From: Candidatus Thalassarchaeaceae archaeon
Lineage (GTDB): Archaea; Thermoplasmatota; Poseidoniia; Poseidoniales; Thalassarchaeaceae
DNA: 41,778 bases
Reading direction: 5' to 3'
Assembly (NCBI GenBank): GCA_023700255.1
Contig: JAJPRD010000003.1
Location: 1-41,778, forward strand
Of this stretch, positions 14,210 to 21,340 are shown piece by piece (position 1 is the first letter of the stretch; each line of letters begins with the position of its first letter). Below the pieces are notes generated by a model, which saw only the letters and a list, made by a program, of their open reading frames with translations, was not told the origin of the DNA and did not search any database. A program made the translations under genes and the position numbers.

Positions 14210-17200
14210 CTATAATTTTCCTAGACGCCTAAGTCTAAGTTCGAATTCATCTAGTTCTTCTTCAACTACATCATTAGTTGGCTTTAATTCATCTATTATT
14301 GGTTCAGAGGATTGTTCTTCTTCACTTCCTTCTATAGGTTGTTGGGCTTCATTTTTGATTATAATTTTCTTATTTGAGATATTTTGTTTTATTGCTTCCT
14401 CTGTAATTCTCATCATTTCTTTCCTTTCTCTATGGTTCTTTACAAGCCATGCCATGGTGATTGCTAATCCTATAATCAATGAAGCAGATAATAACCCTGT
14501 TTCTAAATCTTGGATACCATCATCATCTTCTCCTCCTCCTGTTAAAATTATTATGATCTGGTTATCGGTAGAATCGGATTCTATATCCCAAGGGAATGCA
14601 CAACTAAATTGTATGATTAATTCACTTCCATCTGCTAGAGGTGGCCTGTCTATTTTCGGTAAAAGGTAAACTCCCGATGGTTCAATGAGATGTGTTTCAA
14701 TATAATCATCTGAAGTGAGGATTAGTAAACAATCAGCATTACTTAGAAGATTCTGATTCTCCCTAATTGTAGTTATTTGTATTTCTTGGTTGCTCCCAGT
14801 CCCTATTAGCTCTATACCGGTCAGACCAATATTCCAATCGGTTCTCCTTATATCGAACTGTTTTTCGATACTTGTGAATTCAATCCCTCTTGAGTCAAGA
14901 GCTCTCAATATTAGCGATCTTTTCCCTGGTTTGGGATTCCAATCAATAGTTGAAAGGTTCATTTCATCTAATGACATATTATTTGCTAATGTCCCATATG
15001 ATGAGTCTAGTAACATTCCATTATCGTCTATTAGTAATAGTGTATAGTCAAAGGCTCCAGTTCCATTATTTATTGAGCAAGATGCGGTAATATCTCCTTG
15101 AATACCTGATAGTGTACAAATTCCATCTCTCAATAATGGTTGTGAGACATATGCAGTGTATACTAGTCCTTCATCTGAATTAATGGTTATTTCTCCATCT
15201 GAGATTGATTGAGAGGCAACCCATAACCAACCTCCTCTCTCATCCCAATTTAGTACTCCTTGACTGCCATCGATAACAATTGATTGAGAATTTGTTCCAT
15301 GTATTCTCAAGAGTACTTTGTCTTCACTAATTGCATTTATTATTGGTGATGTAGACCAAGAATATTTTTGTTGTGTGGTGTCAAGTAAGATTTCATCTAC
15401 ATTCCCCAATTCATCTATTGCTTCGATCTTAATTGTGTATACTTCTCCATTCCAGTTTGAACTTGGAATCACTTGTATTGGTAAACCTCTTATTTCACCA
15501 ACTGCTAAAACAACAGTTGTATCGCCTAATACAGTCCATCCAGATGGTAAACTTCTGACACTAAGGTTGATTGTAGTTGGTGCATTTCCTTCATTCAATA
15601 ATGTTGCATGAGGATATCCACCATCTGCGGATATAACCCATGGGCTTTCACCTACTAAATCGAACTGATGAATTACCGATACTCTCAATGGGACTATAGT
15701 TTCAGATAATGAGCCACCTTCTCTAAGACGGATATGTAACTCTACCGTCTTTCCATGTTGAGCATTTTCTGGTGGGATTATATTCAACGTCATAATCGCA
15801 CTTTCACCAGGTTCAAGGATTGGTAATTCATCAGGTGTTTCAACAATCCAGTTATTCGAACCATTCACATAAACGGTTGTGAAAGCTTTTGATGGTGAAT
15901 TCCCAAGTTGTACAATCTCGATATCTATAGAAGATCCTTCGGGATTTATTTCTAAATCTACCTGACTAGATATTGCATTCCATTTCTTTATCTGTGGAAC
16001 TTCTACATTGAACATGAAGGTCTCTACAACCTCACCCTTTGCAATAGCATCCACGGATATTTGCATAATTGAACCATTCCAAGAATTTTCTGGAATAAAC
16101 CAGTTTAACGAAAGATAGCCTGTTTGATTCACAGCGATATTCTCAATTGAGGTGCCAGATGCATTCCAGCCAATTGATGAATCAGAACCTGAATAAATGA
16201 TGTTGATCGATGTTTCAAGAGACATATTATCAACAAGATTACCTATGTTCTTTGCCTCTACTGTAATTTGATGTGTTTCACCCGGTTGAGAGATTATAGT
16301 ATTATTTTTAATATTTATTTCAGATTGGAAAGCATCAATCAACCATCTATGATCTTGCTTAGCTGATAGTACTAATATCTCAGAATCACTAACCTCTTGA
16401 TTCCCTTCAGATATCATTGTAATCATTATCTGAATAGGTGTAGTGGCAGGTGTGTCATCAGGCAATCTTACTATCACTGGAATAGTCTGTAGGCTCCCCG
16501 GTCCAAGTGTTACTTGTTCACTTGTAAATGATATAGTGACATCGAGATTTTCATTAATTCCTGAATCAATTATTAGTTCTGAACTTAATCTAAATGAGTC
16601 TATACCATTCCCTGGGTTTTCAAGTTTAATCATTACTAATATATCTTCTTCGACTTCAACTTCATGAGGTTGATCTAATGGGGATGTAATAGTTAAATCC
16701 GCACGATAGATTTGTAATACCTCTAATGAAAATTGTAGGTTATGGTCTGCTGATTGAGTACTTGAATCTGAAAACATATGGAATGATGGTGATGCGTCAG
16801 GAGGTAAATCAAGACTGATAGTTCCGTATACTCTCGAAGGTCCAGATCTAGTTAATATCAATATGTCATCAATAATTTCTAAGTCTCCAGATGCACTCCA
16901 AGACCAACCTGGGATTATCAATCCTGCATCAGACATTGACCATTCTAATTGGGTGTAGCCTACTGGCATATCTGCGGTAATATCCCAAGATAATACATTG
17001 TCTGGCACCGTTCTTTGGTGTACATCAGTAACTACTCCTGTTGCCATGAATGAAAGTTGAATTGTTTGGCAAACCCCCTCACTTACGCACATTTCTAGAG
17101 GTGTATTGACAGAGTCACCAAGGTTAGCCCCACTTGGCACCTGTAGTCTTGCTGTCAGATATATCATCTCATCTGGATCTAGTGTTAATGCCGATACTTG

Positions 17201-19885
17201 ATTTTCATCTAAGTCAAATAATTTTAAATCATTACCCCAAGATGTAGTATCCCAAGACATTATGATTTGATTTTCGGCAGCATTACCTAAATTATGAATC
17301 AACATCCATGCTTCTGCATATTCTCCGGTCAACCCATATCCTAAGCTATTGGCTGTTCCATCAGGACCTCTGATTGAAAGTCCTCTTGTTCTGTTTGCCT
17401 CAATTGGTAATAAAGCAGAAACACTCACGTTATTATCATCGTCTAAAGTCAACGTCAATGATAAAAATCCTGAATCGGACCCTAGTGAATTACTTGGTGC
17501 ATATACCCTTAAACTTGGATTCCAAATTTCGCCAACCCCAATTTCTATCGAACTAACTCCATTAACTGATTCATCACTCCAAGTCCACCCCTCTGGTAAA
17601 TTTGTTCCATCAATCGTAAGGCTCCATACACCAGCCATTCTTCCTGTAGAACGTATATTTGGGGATATTAATTCACTTTCACCAGGGGTGACTCTAGTAG
17701 GCTCAGTTGGGATTTCAAAACTAGCATTATACGGATTAACTATGCTCAGAATCGTTGTTTGGACATCATTATCATATCTTGATTGAGATATGTTTGAATA
17801 TGGATCTAGAACTAATGTAAATTCATGTTCACCCAGTCCTCCGGACCATTCAACAGTAAATGTTGCTAAATTACCATTACTTGTTGGATCAACAGGTTGC
17901 ATATTCCCGAATCGTTCTCTAGCAATGACCTCTCCATCAGCGTACAATACAGCATCAGTATCTTCATCTGTTTCTGCAGTTCCTGCATTCTCAAAAGATA
18001 CTGTTACAGTTACAATTTCATTTGGGTCGGGTGCAACTGGGCTAAATTCTATGCTTCTACCATCTTGTTGAGGTCTGACATCTGCAATTTTAAGTGAAAT
18101 TACTGTATCCCCTAGGATCAGATCTAATGTTGCATCACCATCAATATCTGCTAATGATGGTGATGACCATAATCGATGCCCAATAGAGATAGCCCCGTTC
18201 CACTCAGCATTTATTCCTGCCATAGTTCCAAGTTCTCCATCATAAGCCCTTAATTCACGGCCATATGGAACTATTAATTCTGGTTCATCTGAGCCATCAA
18301 TATCCATCCAAATTGGAGATGCTACCGCAATACCATCATTGAACGCGCCTTGTGGTTCTAGTATCTCTTTACTCCATGCTTCTTGTGGGCTGCTAGTATC
18401 TGTGTCCTCATGGCAACCAGTGAAACCGTCTCTGTTAGTATTCCAACTATTTGTTGCCCATGTTATCCAGCAAACTCTATCATGATCTCCATCTCCATCT
18501 GTATCGAAACTTATTGGTGCTGAGTCCGAGAATCCATTAGAGGCCTCTATTTCCCATATTTTTGTACCATCACTAATTTCTAAACCGTAGTACTCTGCAC
18601 CGTGTACCGCTGCATTACCATCGAAATCAGAAGGTATTGTTACTATCATCTCCATTGCAGCATCCGAGTCTAAATTTGATACCACAGGTCCTGGTAATCT
18701 TATATGAGGAACATCTGAATCGAATCCATTTTGATTTTCAAGAGATTTACCGTCCCAATTAGCATCACCATCATTGGCATCTAATTTCCAAACCCACATT
18801 GAGCTTGTTGAACTTTGAACTGAAGTCAGTAGAATGAAGGCTGTATTCTCATCAGTTTGAACAAATGCAGGATCGGATGGATGTGTGCCTTTATCAAGTG
18901 TTTTTTGCCATATTGAGGTGGCAGTAGTGCCAGTTATATCAAGTGCTAGAACTACAGGTTCTTCTGAATTCTTTTCGATAAGTGAGAGTACTAGTTCTGC
19001 AGTTCCATCTAAATCTAAATCCGCTAGTAATGGTTGAGCGGTTGGTTTGTGTCCACCTAATGTGCTACTTACATATGGTCCATCGTTACTTCCTATCATT
19101 AGTAACGGATCTGAATAAGTCCATAATAATTCAGTAATATGGCTGCCATAAGGTGACCAACCTGTCACAGTGCAAGTTAATTGTGGAGAATAACTTTTGA
19201 CATAGAATGTACCACTCATATCAAAAGATACGATAATTTCTTGTTTACCGTCATCATTTAAGTCTACAATGACTGGAGATGCTTTAATTTCATCAGTAGC
19301 TCCAAGATCTAATTCCCATGCTAAATCTGCATCTTCTCCTTCAATAATTCGTAAAATACTATGGCTACTCCCACTGACATCTTCGGTTTGTATTATTATT
19401 GTAAATAATGAATCGCCACCACATCGTTCACTCGAATCTTCATTCGTAGTAATAGAATTCTTCAAATCTGCAACTGGAGTAGCGAAAGAGTCCGTGGAAT
19501 AGATGTAGTCATTATATTGCCAATTAATAATTGGATCAACTATTGACATATATTCAGATGCATTATTGGGACTTCCAATTCCTGCACCTCCATCTGGACT
19601 ATGAGCTGGAGGTGTCGATTGTCTACCTGGTGTTTTACCAGATTGAGGCCATGGTTGACCTCCATCTTCCCAGATTGATTGAGAATTTGATGTATGTGAA
19701 ATCGAAACTTCATCAATGAAATCTAAATCTTGATTATTAATGTTCGACAGGTATCCTGAATGAGGCATCAATAATAATAAAAAGGTCATTAACAAGCAAA
19801 TAGACAATTTACTGGGGCGACCTAACATTGCGGGCTCTGTCATTAGGTACCAAATGCGATTCAATACCCACTTGAACATTCGCAC
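14210..19885 (-). CDS. Giant surface protein (1891 aa): signal peptide, VCBS/FG-GAP-like blades, CARDB-like domain, Ig-like repeats, C-terminal TM
   Basis: 'DLNDDGKQEIIVSF', 'DLDLDGTAELVLSL', 'DIDGDATLDLILGD'; 'VTVSFENAGTAETDEDTDAVLYADG'; TM 'TGLLSASLIIGLAITMAWLV' with charged tail. Confidence 0.8.
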   Translation of the reverse strand: MRMFKWVLNRIWYLMTEPAMLGRPSKLSICLLMTFLLLLMPHSGYLSNINNQDLDFIDEVSISHTSNSQSIWEDGGQPWPQSGKTPGRQSTPPAHSPDGGAGIGSPNNASEYMSIVDPIINWQYNDYIYSTDSFATPVADLKNSITTNEDSSERCGGDSLFTIIIQTEDVSGSSHSILRIIEGEDADLAWELDLGATDEIKASPVIVDLNDDGKQEIIVSFDMSGTFYVKSYSPQLTCTVTGWSPYGSHITELLWTYSDPLLMIGSNDGPYVSSTLGGHKPTAQPLLADLDLDGTAELVLSLIEKNSEEPVVLALDITGTTATSIWQKTLDKGTHPSDPAFVQTDENTAFILLTSVQSSTSSMWVWKLDANDGDANWDGKSLENQNGFDSDVPHIRLPGPVVSNLDSDAAMEMIVTIPSDFDGNAAVHGAEYYGLEISDGTKIWEIEASNGFSDSAPISFDTDGDGDHDRVCWITWATNSWNTNRDGFTGCHEDTDTSSPQEAWSKEILEPQGAFNDGIAVASPIWMDIDGSDEPELIVPYGRELRAYDGELGTMAGINAEWNGAISIGHRLWSSPSLADIDGDATLDLILGDTVISLKIADVRPQQDGRSIEFSPVAPDPNEIVTVTVSFENAGTAETDEDTDAVLYADGEVIARERFGNMQPVDPTSNGNLATFTVEWSGGLGEHEFTLVLDPYSNISQSRYDNDVQTTILSIVNPYNASFEIPTEPTRVTPGESELISPNIRSTGRMAGVWSLTIDGTNLPEGWTWSDESVNGVSSIEIGVGEIWNPSLRVYAPSNSLGSDSGFLSLTLTLDDDNNVSVSALLPIEANRTRGLSIRGPDGTANSLGYGLTGEYAEAWMLIHNLGNAAENQIIMSWDTTSWGNDLKLFDLDENQVSALTLDPDEMIYLTARLQVPSGANLGDSVNTPLEMCVSEGVCQTIQLSFMATGVVTDVHQRTVPDNVLSWDITADMPVGYTQLEWSMSDAGLIIPGWSWSASGDLEIIDDILILTRSGPSRVYGTISLDLPPDASPSFHMFSDSSTQSADHNLQFSLEVLQIYRADLTITSPLDQPHEVEVEEDILVMIKLENPGNGIDSFRLSSELIIDSGINENLDVTISFTSEQVTLGPGSLQTIPVIVRLPDDTPATTPIQIMITMISEGNQEVSDSEILVLSAKQDHRWLIDAFQSEINIKNNTIISQPGETHQITVEAKNIGNLVDNMSLETSINIIYSGSDSSIGWNASGTSIENIAVNQTGYLSLNWFIPENSWNGSIMQISVDAIAKGEVVETFMFNVEVPQIKKWNAISSQVDLEINPEGSSIDIEIVQLGNSPSKAFTTVYVNGSNNWIVETPDELPILEPGESAIMTLNIIPPENAQHGKTVELHIRLREGGSLSETIVPLRVSVIHQFDLVGESPWVISADGGYPHATLLNEGNAPTTINLSVRSLPSGWTVLGDTTVVLAVGEIRGLPIQVIPSSNWNGEVYTIKIEAIDELGNVDEILLDTTQQKYSWSTSPIINAISEDKVLLRIHGTNSQSIVIDGSQGVLNWDERGGWLWVASQSISDGEITINSDEGLVYTAYVSQPLLRDGICTLSGIQGDITASCSINNGTGAFDYTLLLIDDNGMLLDSSYGTLANNMSLDEMNLSTIDWNPKPGKRSLILRALDSRGIEFTSIEKQFDIRRTDWNIGLTGIELIGTGSNQEIQITTIRENQNLLSNADCLLILTSDDYIETHLIEPSGVYLLPKIDRPPLADGSELIIQFSCAFPWDIESDSTDNQIIIILTGGGEDDDGIQDLETGLLSASLIIGLAITMAWLVKNHRERKEMMRITEEAIKQNISNKKIIIKNEAQQPIEGSEEEQSSEPIIDELKPTNDVVEEELDEFELRLRRLGKL

Positions 19886-19970
19886 TAAACTCTCGCCCAG
19901 ACCTATGGTCTGCTAGGAGATTGGCATTTACCGGCAATAATCACCATCCGTTGTGCTTATACAGGAGTGG

Positions 19971-20078
19971 TAGGTCGGCGAGTCAACGGACTTCTCCTCT
20001 GGAGGCTTTGCCGATGAGGGACGGGGGGTCATCCGCCTTCCTCCGACAAACCTCGGAGCGGTCCGTTAATAGGAGGAA
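19971..20078 (+). promoter_or_regulatory. Candidate structured leader / cis-regulatory RNA of the rpo7 operon
   Basis: GC-rich island in AT-rich DNA; helices TCGGC/GCCGA, AACGGAC/GTCCGTT, CTCCGA-CAAACC-TCGGAG; TTCCTCC (20038-20044) exactly complements SD GGAGGAA (20072-20078). Confidence 0.45.
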
Positions 20079-20086
20079 GAATACCA

Positions 20087-20635
20087 ATGTACAGTATAGT
20101 CACACGTGAAGACACAATACGCATACCAGCAGAGTATATCCGAGCAGGACGTAACCTAGTTGACCATATCGATGAATTAGCAAATGATGCTTTTGAGGGT
20201 CGTTTTGATACAGATGAAAATTATACTCTTCTAACATTTAACCATGAACCAATGGGTCGTGGTAAAATTATCCATGGCGATGGTGCAATATACCAAAGAG
20301 TTAGATTTAAGGCATTACTTTTCAATATGGAAAATAATGAAGTTGTAGATGGATATGCATCAGAAATCTCTGAATATGGAGCATTCGTAAGAATCGGACC
20401 AATGGAAGCATTATTGCACAAATCTCAAATCCTCGATGAACCTATTAATGTCAATTTAGGTATCAAAAGAATTGAAGGTGCTTCAACCGGTAAATTCTTG
20501 GAAGAAGGTTCATACATCCGTTCTCGAGTTGTATCTAAAGCAATAAACCAAAACGATCCAAGAGCAAGTAAAATTGGTCTTAATTGTAAAATGGATGGAC
20601 TTGGCGCTTATAATTGGATACAGGAGCAGGATTAA
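20087..20635 (+). CDS. rpo7: DNA-directed RNA polymerase subunit E' (Rpo7)
   Basis: 'MYSIVTREDTIRIPAEYI', S1 domain 'VDGYASEISEYGAFVRIGPMEALLHKSQI', 'GLNCKMDGLGAYNWI'. Confidence 0.93.
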   Translation: MYSIVTREDTIRIPAEYIRAGRNLVDHIDELANDAFEGRFDTDENYTLLTFNHEPMGRGKIIHGDGAIYQRVRFKALLFNMENNEVVDGYASEISEYGAFVRIGPMEALLHKSQILDEPINVNLGIKRIEGASTGKFLEEGSYIRSRVVSKAINQNDPRASKIGLNCKMDGLGAYNWIQEQD

Positions 20636-20636
20636 A

Positions 20637-20855
20637 ATGGCTAAACAACCATTTGCTTGTGGTGAGTGTAATCGCATTCTTCCCGACCCTGAGAATAAGG
20701 GCGATATTGTTCAATGCAAACACTGCCCTAATGCACCAATAACTACTGATTGGCAAGGATATGTGATTATTCTTAATCCTGAGAGATCAGAAGTAGCTGC
20801 TAGACTTAATGTAAAGAGTCCAGGTACTTACGCTTTGAAGGTAAACATCAGATAA
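20637..20855 (+). CDS. spt4: Transcription elongation factor Spt4 (RNAP subunit E'')
   Basis: 'KQPFACGECNRILPDPENKGDIVQCKHCPNAPITTDWQGYVIILNPERSEVAARLNVKSPGTYALKV'; ATG at 20637. Confidence 0.93.
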   Translation: MAKQPFACGECNRILPDPENKGDIVQCKHCPNAPITTDWQGYVIILNPERSEVAARLNVKSPGTYALKVNIR

Positions 20856-20867
20856 GGAGGAAAAAAC

Positions 20868-21173
20868 ATGCAAATAATTGAAAGAAAAGAAAACCCGCTT
20901 CTCGGTCGAGTCGAACTAACCTTTGAGTGGAATCATGTGAATATGCCAACACCTACACTTTCCGAAATGGTCACTTCTGCTGCAAAGGCAGAGCCTGGCG
21001 CAAATCGTGAATTAGTATTCGTTAAGAATGTCAGTACAAGATATGGGCGTCCATTTACAACAGGTCTCGCTCTTGTTTATGATTCTGCTGAATCAGCTGC
21101 TTTTGAACCTAAATTTGTTCAGGATAGGCATCAAAAAACACGTACATCTACCGAAAAAGGAGGCGATGAATAA
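20868..21173 (+). CDS. rps24e: 30S ribosomal protein S24e
   Basis: 'MQIIERKENPLLGRVELTFEWNH...KNVSTRYGRPFTTGLALVYDSAESAAFEP'; SD AAGGAGG upstream. Confidence 0.92.
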   Translation: MQIIERKENPLLGRVELTFEWNHVNMPTPTLSEMVTSAAKAEPGANRELVFVKNVSTRYGRPFTTGLALVYDSAESAAFEPKFVQDRHQKTRTSTEKGGDE

Positions 21174-21340
21174 TGACTGAAGGACCGAGCCCAAATGCAA
21201 AATGGTCAAAATATACTATTGACGGAGATTCACTTGTAAGAAAAGGTGAGTTCTGCCCAACATGTGGACCTGGAGTATTCTTAGGGGTTCATAATGACCG
21301 CAAAGTTTGCGGTAAATGTGGACACAGCACAAGTGAATAA
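21173..21340 (+). CDS. rps27ae: 30S ribosomal protein S27ae (not in the supplied ORF track)
   Basis: MTEGPSPNAKWSKYTIDGDSLVRKGEFCPTCGPGVFLGVHNDRKVCGKCGHSTSE; zinc-ribbon CxxC pairs; overlaps the rps24e stop (TAATGA). Confidence 0.92.
   Translation: MTEGPSPNAKWSKYTIDGDSLVRKGEFCPTCGPGVFLGVHNDRKVCGKCGHSTSE

Follow-up and report, generated by a model that had tools for sequence, protein, structure and literature searches.

Organization of the rpo7 locus

The window, that is, the whole 41,778-nucleotide stretch of DNA analyzed here, belongs to a genome of 1.43 Mb (81% complete), the closest named relatives of which are Candidatus Thalassarchaeum/Thalassarchaeaceae (Marine Group IIb, order Poseidoniales). 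The leader under study is flanked by a divergent gene on the minus strand (14210-19885) and by the rpo7-spt4-rps24e-rps27ae operon, the third and fourth genes of which encode the ribosomal proteins eS24 and eS31 (Table 1). As already noticed in an earlier note made from the sequence, the leader is a GC-rich island, with a GC content of 0.59 at 19950-20049 versus about 0.35 around it. Rpo7 was sought in 60 relatives from two families (hereafter designated the window's family and the sister family) and found in 58, and more than 100 distinct leaders were available for comparing the region upstream of the gene. The gene order of the operon is unchanged in all relatives with a long enough contig.

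The divergent open reading frame encodes 1891 amino acids, with a hydrophobic N-terminal segment and a membrane-like C-terminal segment, and has this divergent orientation relative to rpo7 in almost every relative checked. Just upstream of its start (19885, minus strand), a perfect palindrome, CAGACCTATGGTCTG, occupies 19899-19913; since relatives keep the palindrome with different letters (GGGTTACATAGTAACCC in L027 and GTGACCCTACCGGGTCAC in L028), it probably serves as an operator or forms a hairpin in the 5' UTR. The 23S rRNA gene is unlinked to that of 16S rRNA and, in two sister-family genomes (L055/L054; G037, G047), is encoded on the same strand as rpo7, some 9 kb upstream.

Table 1 Features of the rpo7 leader and operon in the window, with helices given as pairs of strands.
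Feature	Position	Strand	Remarks
TATA box CTTATAC of the rpo7 operon	19956-19962	+	Near-constant spacing to the conserved GAGG anchor
Promoter-spacer element GGTCGGCG	19973-19980	+	Between TATA box and start; contains TCGGC (19975-19979); DNA element outside the RNA fold
Predicted transcription start	19985	+	First T of TATA + 28; from TATA spacing
P1 (basal helix), 5' strand AACGGACU	19985-19992 with 20060-20067	+	
P1b, CUCC/GGAG	19994-19997 with 20055-20058	+	Model helix 2, with 83% of its cells paired
Conserved unpaired UC and two variable bases	19998-20001	+	5'-strand bulge; top-base frequency U 0.98, C 1.0
P2, GAGG/CCUC	20002-20005 with 20051-20054	+	Helix 3; 91% paired; GAGG invariant
P3a, 5' strand UUGCCG	20008-20013 with 20044-20049	+	Compensatory pair types UA/CG/UG and AU/UA/GC in alignments
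2-nt bulge [A/G]U	20014-20015	+	Invariant U, always preceded by A or G
P3b/c, 5' strand GAGGGACGGGGG	20016-20027	+	Helix 7; bulged C20022 at 0.98 though unpaired
P3b	20016-20021 with 20038-20043	+	Per-sequence folding on alignment
P3c	20023-20027 with 20033-20037	+	Per-sequence folding on alignment
P3, 3' strand	20033-20043	+	Holds most of the 'anti-SD' UUCCUC; pairs with 5'-strand GAGGGA and GGG in modelled relatives
3' strands of P3a, P2, P1b and P1, ending GGTCCGTT	20044-20067	+	Sequence variable, complementarity kept
Shine-Dalgarno GGAGGAA of rpo7	20072-20078	+	72% unpaired in the window's predicted ensemble
rpo7 (RNA polymerase subunit Rpo7/RpoE1)	20087-20635	+	Directly 3' of the leader
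spt4, rps24e, rps27ae	20637-21340	+	Downstream in the rpo7 operon

Promoter and predicted transcription start

In nearly all leaders of the window's family, the first T of the TATA box stands 43-46 nt from the GAGG anchor of the RNA (full range, 41-49 nt); in the sister family, the spacing is 48-50 nt. The promoter is thus locked to the RNA core. The suggestion that a TATA-like sequence near 19958 could set the start is supported by this near-constant spacing, which makes the first base of P1, the basal helix, the predicted start, about 102 nt before the rpo7 ATG. Because TCGGC lies upstream of this position, it is most likely not transcribed. The pattern CTTATA-N7-13-GKTCGSC, which describes the promoter with its spacer element, occurs at exactly two places in each of the five genomes searched, namely, the rpo7 leader and a second operon, identified as rps12-rps7-EF2 in the genomes where it was read.

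The spacer element GGTAGGTCGGCG (19956-19980), common to these two operons (rps12-operon copies: L207 from 881, and L208-L210) and found nowhere else in the five genomes, is a candidate binding site for a transcription regulator that would act on both sets of gene-expression genes. The rpo7 mRNA of the sister family is predicted to begin with a hairpin closed by a UNCG tetraloop, UGAC-UUCG/UACG-GUC(A/G), which replaces P1 (L032, L034-L037, L039-L041, L043-L047, L050, L051, L196-L206). This hairpin begins at the same 28-29 nt from the TATA box and was recognized in 24 of the 26 sister-family leaders by automatic parsing and in the remaining two by visual inspection. The basal architecture is therefore not fixed.

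Structure of the leader and evidence for its selection

Per-sequence folding mapped on the alignment predicted that the leader (about 19985-20080) forms one long irregular hairpin, nearly all bulges of which are on the 5' strand. Its basal helix, P1, is the AACGGAC/GTCCGTT pairing pointed out in the earlier note, and it indeed covaries across lineages, for example as CGGACC/GGUCCG, AAGGAACUC/GAGUUCCUU, and CGGGA/UCCCG. A local hairpin between CUCUCCUC and GAGG in the 5' part was also considered and rejected, as it essentially never appeared in the predicted ensembles except in one sister-family sequence.

The fold of the single sequence has a z value of -1.5 relative to shuffles, which is weak evidence taken alone. 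Since the 3' strand slides, plain MAFFT alignments yielded no more than fragments of the structure with RNAalifold, which was replaced by per-sequence folding combined with a covariance model. In the resulting alignment of 71 sequences, which is fitted to the structure and hence leans towards it, 84% of the cells are paired, 24 of the 31 pairs are changed on both sides (versus 16.1 in shuffles; 0/500), and the covariation score is 0.297, as compared with 0.055-0.084 when the strands were slid. An unfitted MAFFT alignment of 23 sequences was also above the controls on most measures.

A chimera test, which needs no structure model, was also performed by exchanging 5' and 3' parts between lineages, folding all combinations among 23 lineages, and scoring the native combinations after removal of row and column effects. 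Lineage representatives were used in the permutation tests because sequences within a lineage are not independent. The native halves folded 3.33 kcal/mol better than the chimeras (permutation sd, 0.65; 0/10,000), and the effect was gone in a composition control with shuffled 3' parts (-0.21 ± 0.41). In the sister family alone, it was weaker but present (-1.29; 90/10,000), and the co-adaptation of P1 within the window's family gave a permutation p of 0.001. From these comparisons, the leader is almost certainly a real structured RNA. It shares with ribosomal-protein leaders (r-leaders) both a covarying 5' UTR structure and a consistent position upstream of a ribosomal-protein operon.

The constraint is unevenly distributed between the two strands. 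The mean top-base frequency is 0.64 in the 3' strand, as against 0.83 for paired and 0.82 for unpaired bases in the 5' strand, where the unpaired U, UC, U, and C reach 0.95-1.0. Across the leaders compared, the 5' strand is near-fixed, including its bulges, whereas the 3' strand is free to change while pairing is kept, an asymmetry suggesting that the 5' strand is recognized as such and that more than stability is at stake.

Distribution of the leader

Both families keep the core CUCUCC-UC-nn-GAGGC-nnn-GCCG-AUGA-n-GGACGG, and a copy of GAGG-N7-9-RTGANGGACGR lies just upstream of rpo7 in almost all genomes. A fuller strict pattern ending at the rpo7 start was found in 255 of 293 Poseidoniales genomes, with one copy per genome and no control match among the genomes listed; the genomes lacking it were mainly those of genera with a GGACGA variant and incomplete ones. 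The covariance model R1 gave matches in 25 of 243 Thermoplasmatota genomes, at one place in each, all in Poseidoniales and all at rpo7, with the reservations that its E-values are rough and that nearly all the genomes are draft assemblies. Outside Poseidoniales (Marine Group III and other Thermoplasmatota), 19 genomes were inspected, and none has the core motif upstream of rpo7. The long leader thus seems to have arisen within Poseidoniales, and comparison across its genomes supports a conserved, structured, single-copy RNA at a constant position. In Marine Group III (L168-L171), rpo7 starts about 30 nt after the TATA box, so its mRNA would be nearly leaderless.

Relationship to the Shine-Dalgarno sequence

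The earlier note had proposed a switch in which the Shine-Dalgarno (SD) sequence is sequestered. Every segment it named was located correctly in the window, and all four complementarities are exact; three of the four pairings fared less well in the comparison with relatives, which supported the structured leader and P1. The TCGGC/GCCGA pairing, thought to interleave with P1 as a pseudoknot or a mutually exclusive helix, is possible in only 27 of 101 relatives. It is unsupported because TCGGC lies upstream of the predicted start, in the promoter element shared with rps12, and does not covary; indeed, the pre-start region (the 22 nt before P1, which hold TCGGC) showed no co-adaptation with the rest of the leader in the permutation test (-0.21; p about 0.31). 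The match of TTCCTCC to the SD is perfect in the window, but a 7-nt anti-SD occurs in only 37 of 101 relatives, and sequestration is unsupported because, in the conserved stem, the partner of this strand is GAGGGA, and its pairing with the SD does not co-evolve. Likewise, the CTCCGA/TCGGAG hairpin is exact in the window but has a local 6-bp counterpart in only 25 of 101 relatives.

Judged as chance matches within a single sequence, these elements are modest. In 3000 dinucleotide shuffles, a 7-nt anti-SD arose in 3.0%, a 7-nt inverted repeat in 25.7%, and a 6-bp hairpin in 20.7%; all three occurred jointly in 0.33%, which is suggestive, but the elements were picked after the fact. Permutation tests revealed no co-adaptation of the SD with the rest of the 3' part (p about 0.18) or with the 5' part (p 0.93), and thus no alternative SD helix maintained by co-evolution, the hallmark of an SD-sequestering switch, was found. 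In the predicted dominant fold, the SD adjoins P1 but stays outside it, being mostly open in the window's family and less so in the sister family.

Comparison with known RNAs

The earlier statement that no known riboswitch class, SRP, or RNase P RNA is recognizable agrees with a search of the window against Rfam 15, which includes these families and published r-leaders and gave no match even at E 10. Nothing credible was found in the relatives, where only a sub-threshold lncRNA match appeared, in 12 of them. Mimicry of 16S or 23S rRNA was sought by linear comparison and by covariance model, with nothing convincing beyond chance; one isolated 14-nt rRNA match was found by linear comparison, in the sister family only. 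Likeness to the ligand's rRNA site, which is frequent but not obligatory in r-leaders, was accordingly not detected. The leader segment GCCGAUGAGGGACG resembles the conserved 5' motif of LSU rRNA; mimicry through this segment was rejected, as the relatives' own LSU rRNA has GCCGAAGAAGGUCG and the scores are at chance.

A K-turn consists of a 3-nt bulge followed by tandem G-A/A-G pairs. In the leader consensus, the bulge is of 2 nt and the pairs after it are G-C and A-U, and a K-turn/L7Ae leader was therefore rejected. Regulation by L7Ae through 5' leaders in archaea is described in PMC6298567, and the L7Ae leaders of PMC5539422 and PMC6298567 resemble the present one in being structured archaeal 5' leaders of a ribosomal-protein mRNA with proposed translation control. 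Here, unlike in those leaders, the G-A after the bulge is paired in Watson-Crick or wobble fashion, and the 3' strand offers no partner G-A. The leader thus matches no catalogued RNA family, and no report of an rpo7 leader or of rpo7 autoregulation was found in the literature searched.

Discussion

Archaeal r-leaders have been described for S15, eL15, and L4 (Eckert and Weinberg 2020, PMC7247131), and the present RNA is like them in being a lineage-restricted, covarying 5' UTR structure directly upstream of a ribosomal-protein operon. It differs from them in having rpo7 as the first gene, in occurring in Poseidoniales, and in the lack of detected rRNA mimicry and of an Rfam match. A regulatory or autoregulatory role is plausible. 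Our preferred reading, to which we assign a rough probability of 0.45, is that the leader is a cis-acting structured 5' UTR acting as the autogenous protein-binding leader of the rpo7-spt4-rps24e-rps27ae mRNA. This reading is favored because eS24 and eS31 are among the operon's products, and the ligand of a known r-leader is encoded in the operon that the leader precedes, in most cases by a gene other than the first (PMC7247131). The archaeal r-leaders and the L7Ae regulation of 5' leaders (PMC6298567) serve as precedents.

The start site, ligand, direction of regulation, and translational step in the following scheme are what we infer. Transcription would begin with the 5'-most base of P1, and approximately the first 83 nt of the transcript would fold into the imperfect hairpin P1-P1b-P2-P3, ending a few bases before the SD. 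When in excess, a protein encoded by the operon, more likely eS24 or eS31 than Rpo7 or Spt4, would recognize the bulged hairpin. Since the SD adjoins P1 without being part of it in the dominant predicted fold, the bound protein would sit beside it and might block access of the 30S subunit or, alternatively, alter mRNA stability.

The main rival, which we consider rather unlikely, is a constitutive 5'-terminal structure that shields the mRNA from decay and presents the SD, with neither ligand nor switching. The helix does start at the predicted first base in the window's family, where the sister family has its UNCG-loop hairpin, and the SD is predicted to be largely open in the former; yet the invariant unpaired bases and the near-fixed 5' strand exceed the needs of a stabilizer, which would also be expected on other mRNAs, whereas this RNA occurs once per genome. 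Clearly unlikely is a riboswitch or thermosensor, as the on/off switch of the earlier note would suggest, in which a metabolite, an ion, or temperature determines whether the SD is accessible. Conserved unpaired bases, together with pyrimidine-rich and purine-rich segments capable of other pairings, would suit such a device, and the hairpin lies just upstream of the SD as in SD-sequestering riboswitches. Unlike in these, the folds predicted for the window's family leave the SD mostly open, no anti-SD co-evolves with it, no alternative helix involving the upstream strands or the pre-start region is maintained, and neither the window nor its relatives gave a credible match to a known class.

It is also improbable that the hairpin is the binding site of Rpo7 or Spt4, an arrangement by which the supply of polymerase would feed back on the ribosomal proteins co-transcribed with it, the shared promoter element tying in the rps12-rps7-EF2 operon. 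If true, it would constitute an archaeal circuit balancing the transcription and translation machineries through one leader RNA.

Attenuation by a short upstream open reading frame (uORF), the translation of which would control rpo7, is quite improbable. The GAGG of P2 is SD-like, and it is followed by AUG or GUG at 7-9 nt in all 105 leaders, forming the GAGG-N7-9-[A/G]UG arrangement within the hairpin; nevertheless, the frame relative to rpo7 is random (43/32/30), the peptides are not conserved beyond MxDG, and GAGG is paired in most predicted folds. Moreover, codon 3 is always GAC and never the synonymous GAT in all leaders, while codon 2 changes its amino acid, a pattern that fits an RNA constraint and not a coding one. 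A conserved coding frame or peptide was sought and not found, and the leader-peptide attenuator was rejected.

A processed or stand-alone small RNA merely overlapping the rpo7 promoter region is very improbable. Thalassarchaea do have a highly expressed noncoding RNA, Tan1, an abundant 229-nt MGII species reported from the Red Sea (PMC5069720), of which the hairpin could be a part; the tight promoter-hairpin-SD-ATG arrangement leaves no room for 229 nt before rpo7 (Tan1 was compared by length only). Finally, the switch exactly as first proposed (TCGGC/GCCGA, TTCCTCC/GGAGGAA, and CTCCGA/TCGGAG) is scarcely credible, for, despite the exact complements in the window and a compensatory change of the last hairpin in one congener (CTCCAA/TTGGAG in L007), its elements recur in only a minority of relatives, show no co-adaptation, and include in TCGGC a piece of promoter DNA common to the rps12 operon.

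On the preferred reading of an autogenous leader, the RNA probably lets the cell tune the rpo7 operon, though not through a pseudoknot and a trapped ribosome-binding site. If autoregulatory, it would be, to our knowledge and as far as the literature searched goes, the first such leader described for an archaeal rpo7. Its order-wide, single-copy occurrence, with nothing found in neighboring lineages, means that its origin can be dated and that a covariance alignment is at hand for experiments. Archaea have few known or predicted cis-regulatory RNAs (PMC7247131); the present one spans an order of uncultivated archaea abundant in the surface ocean, standing once per genome before an operon that joins RNA polymerase and ribosomal genes.
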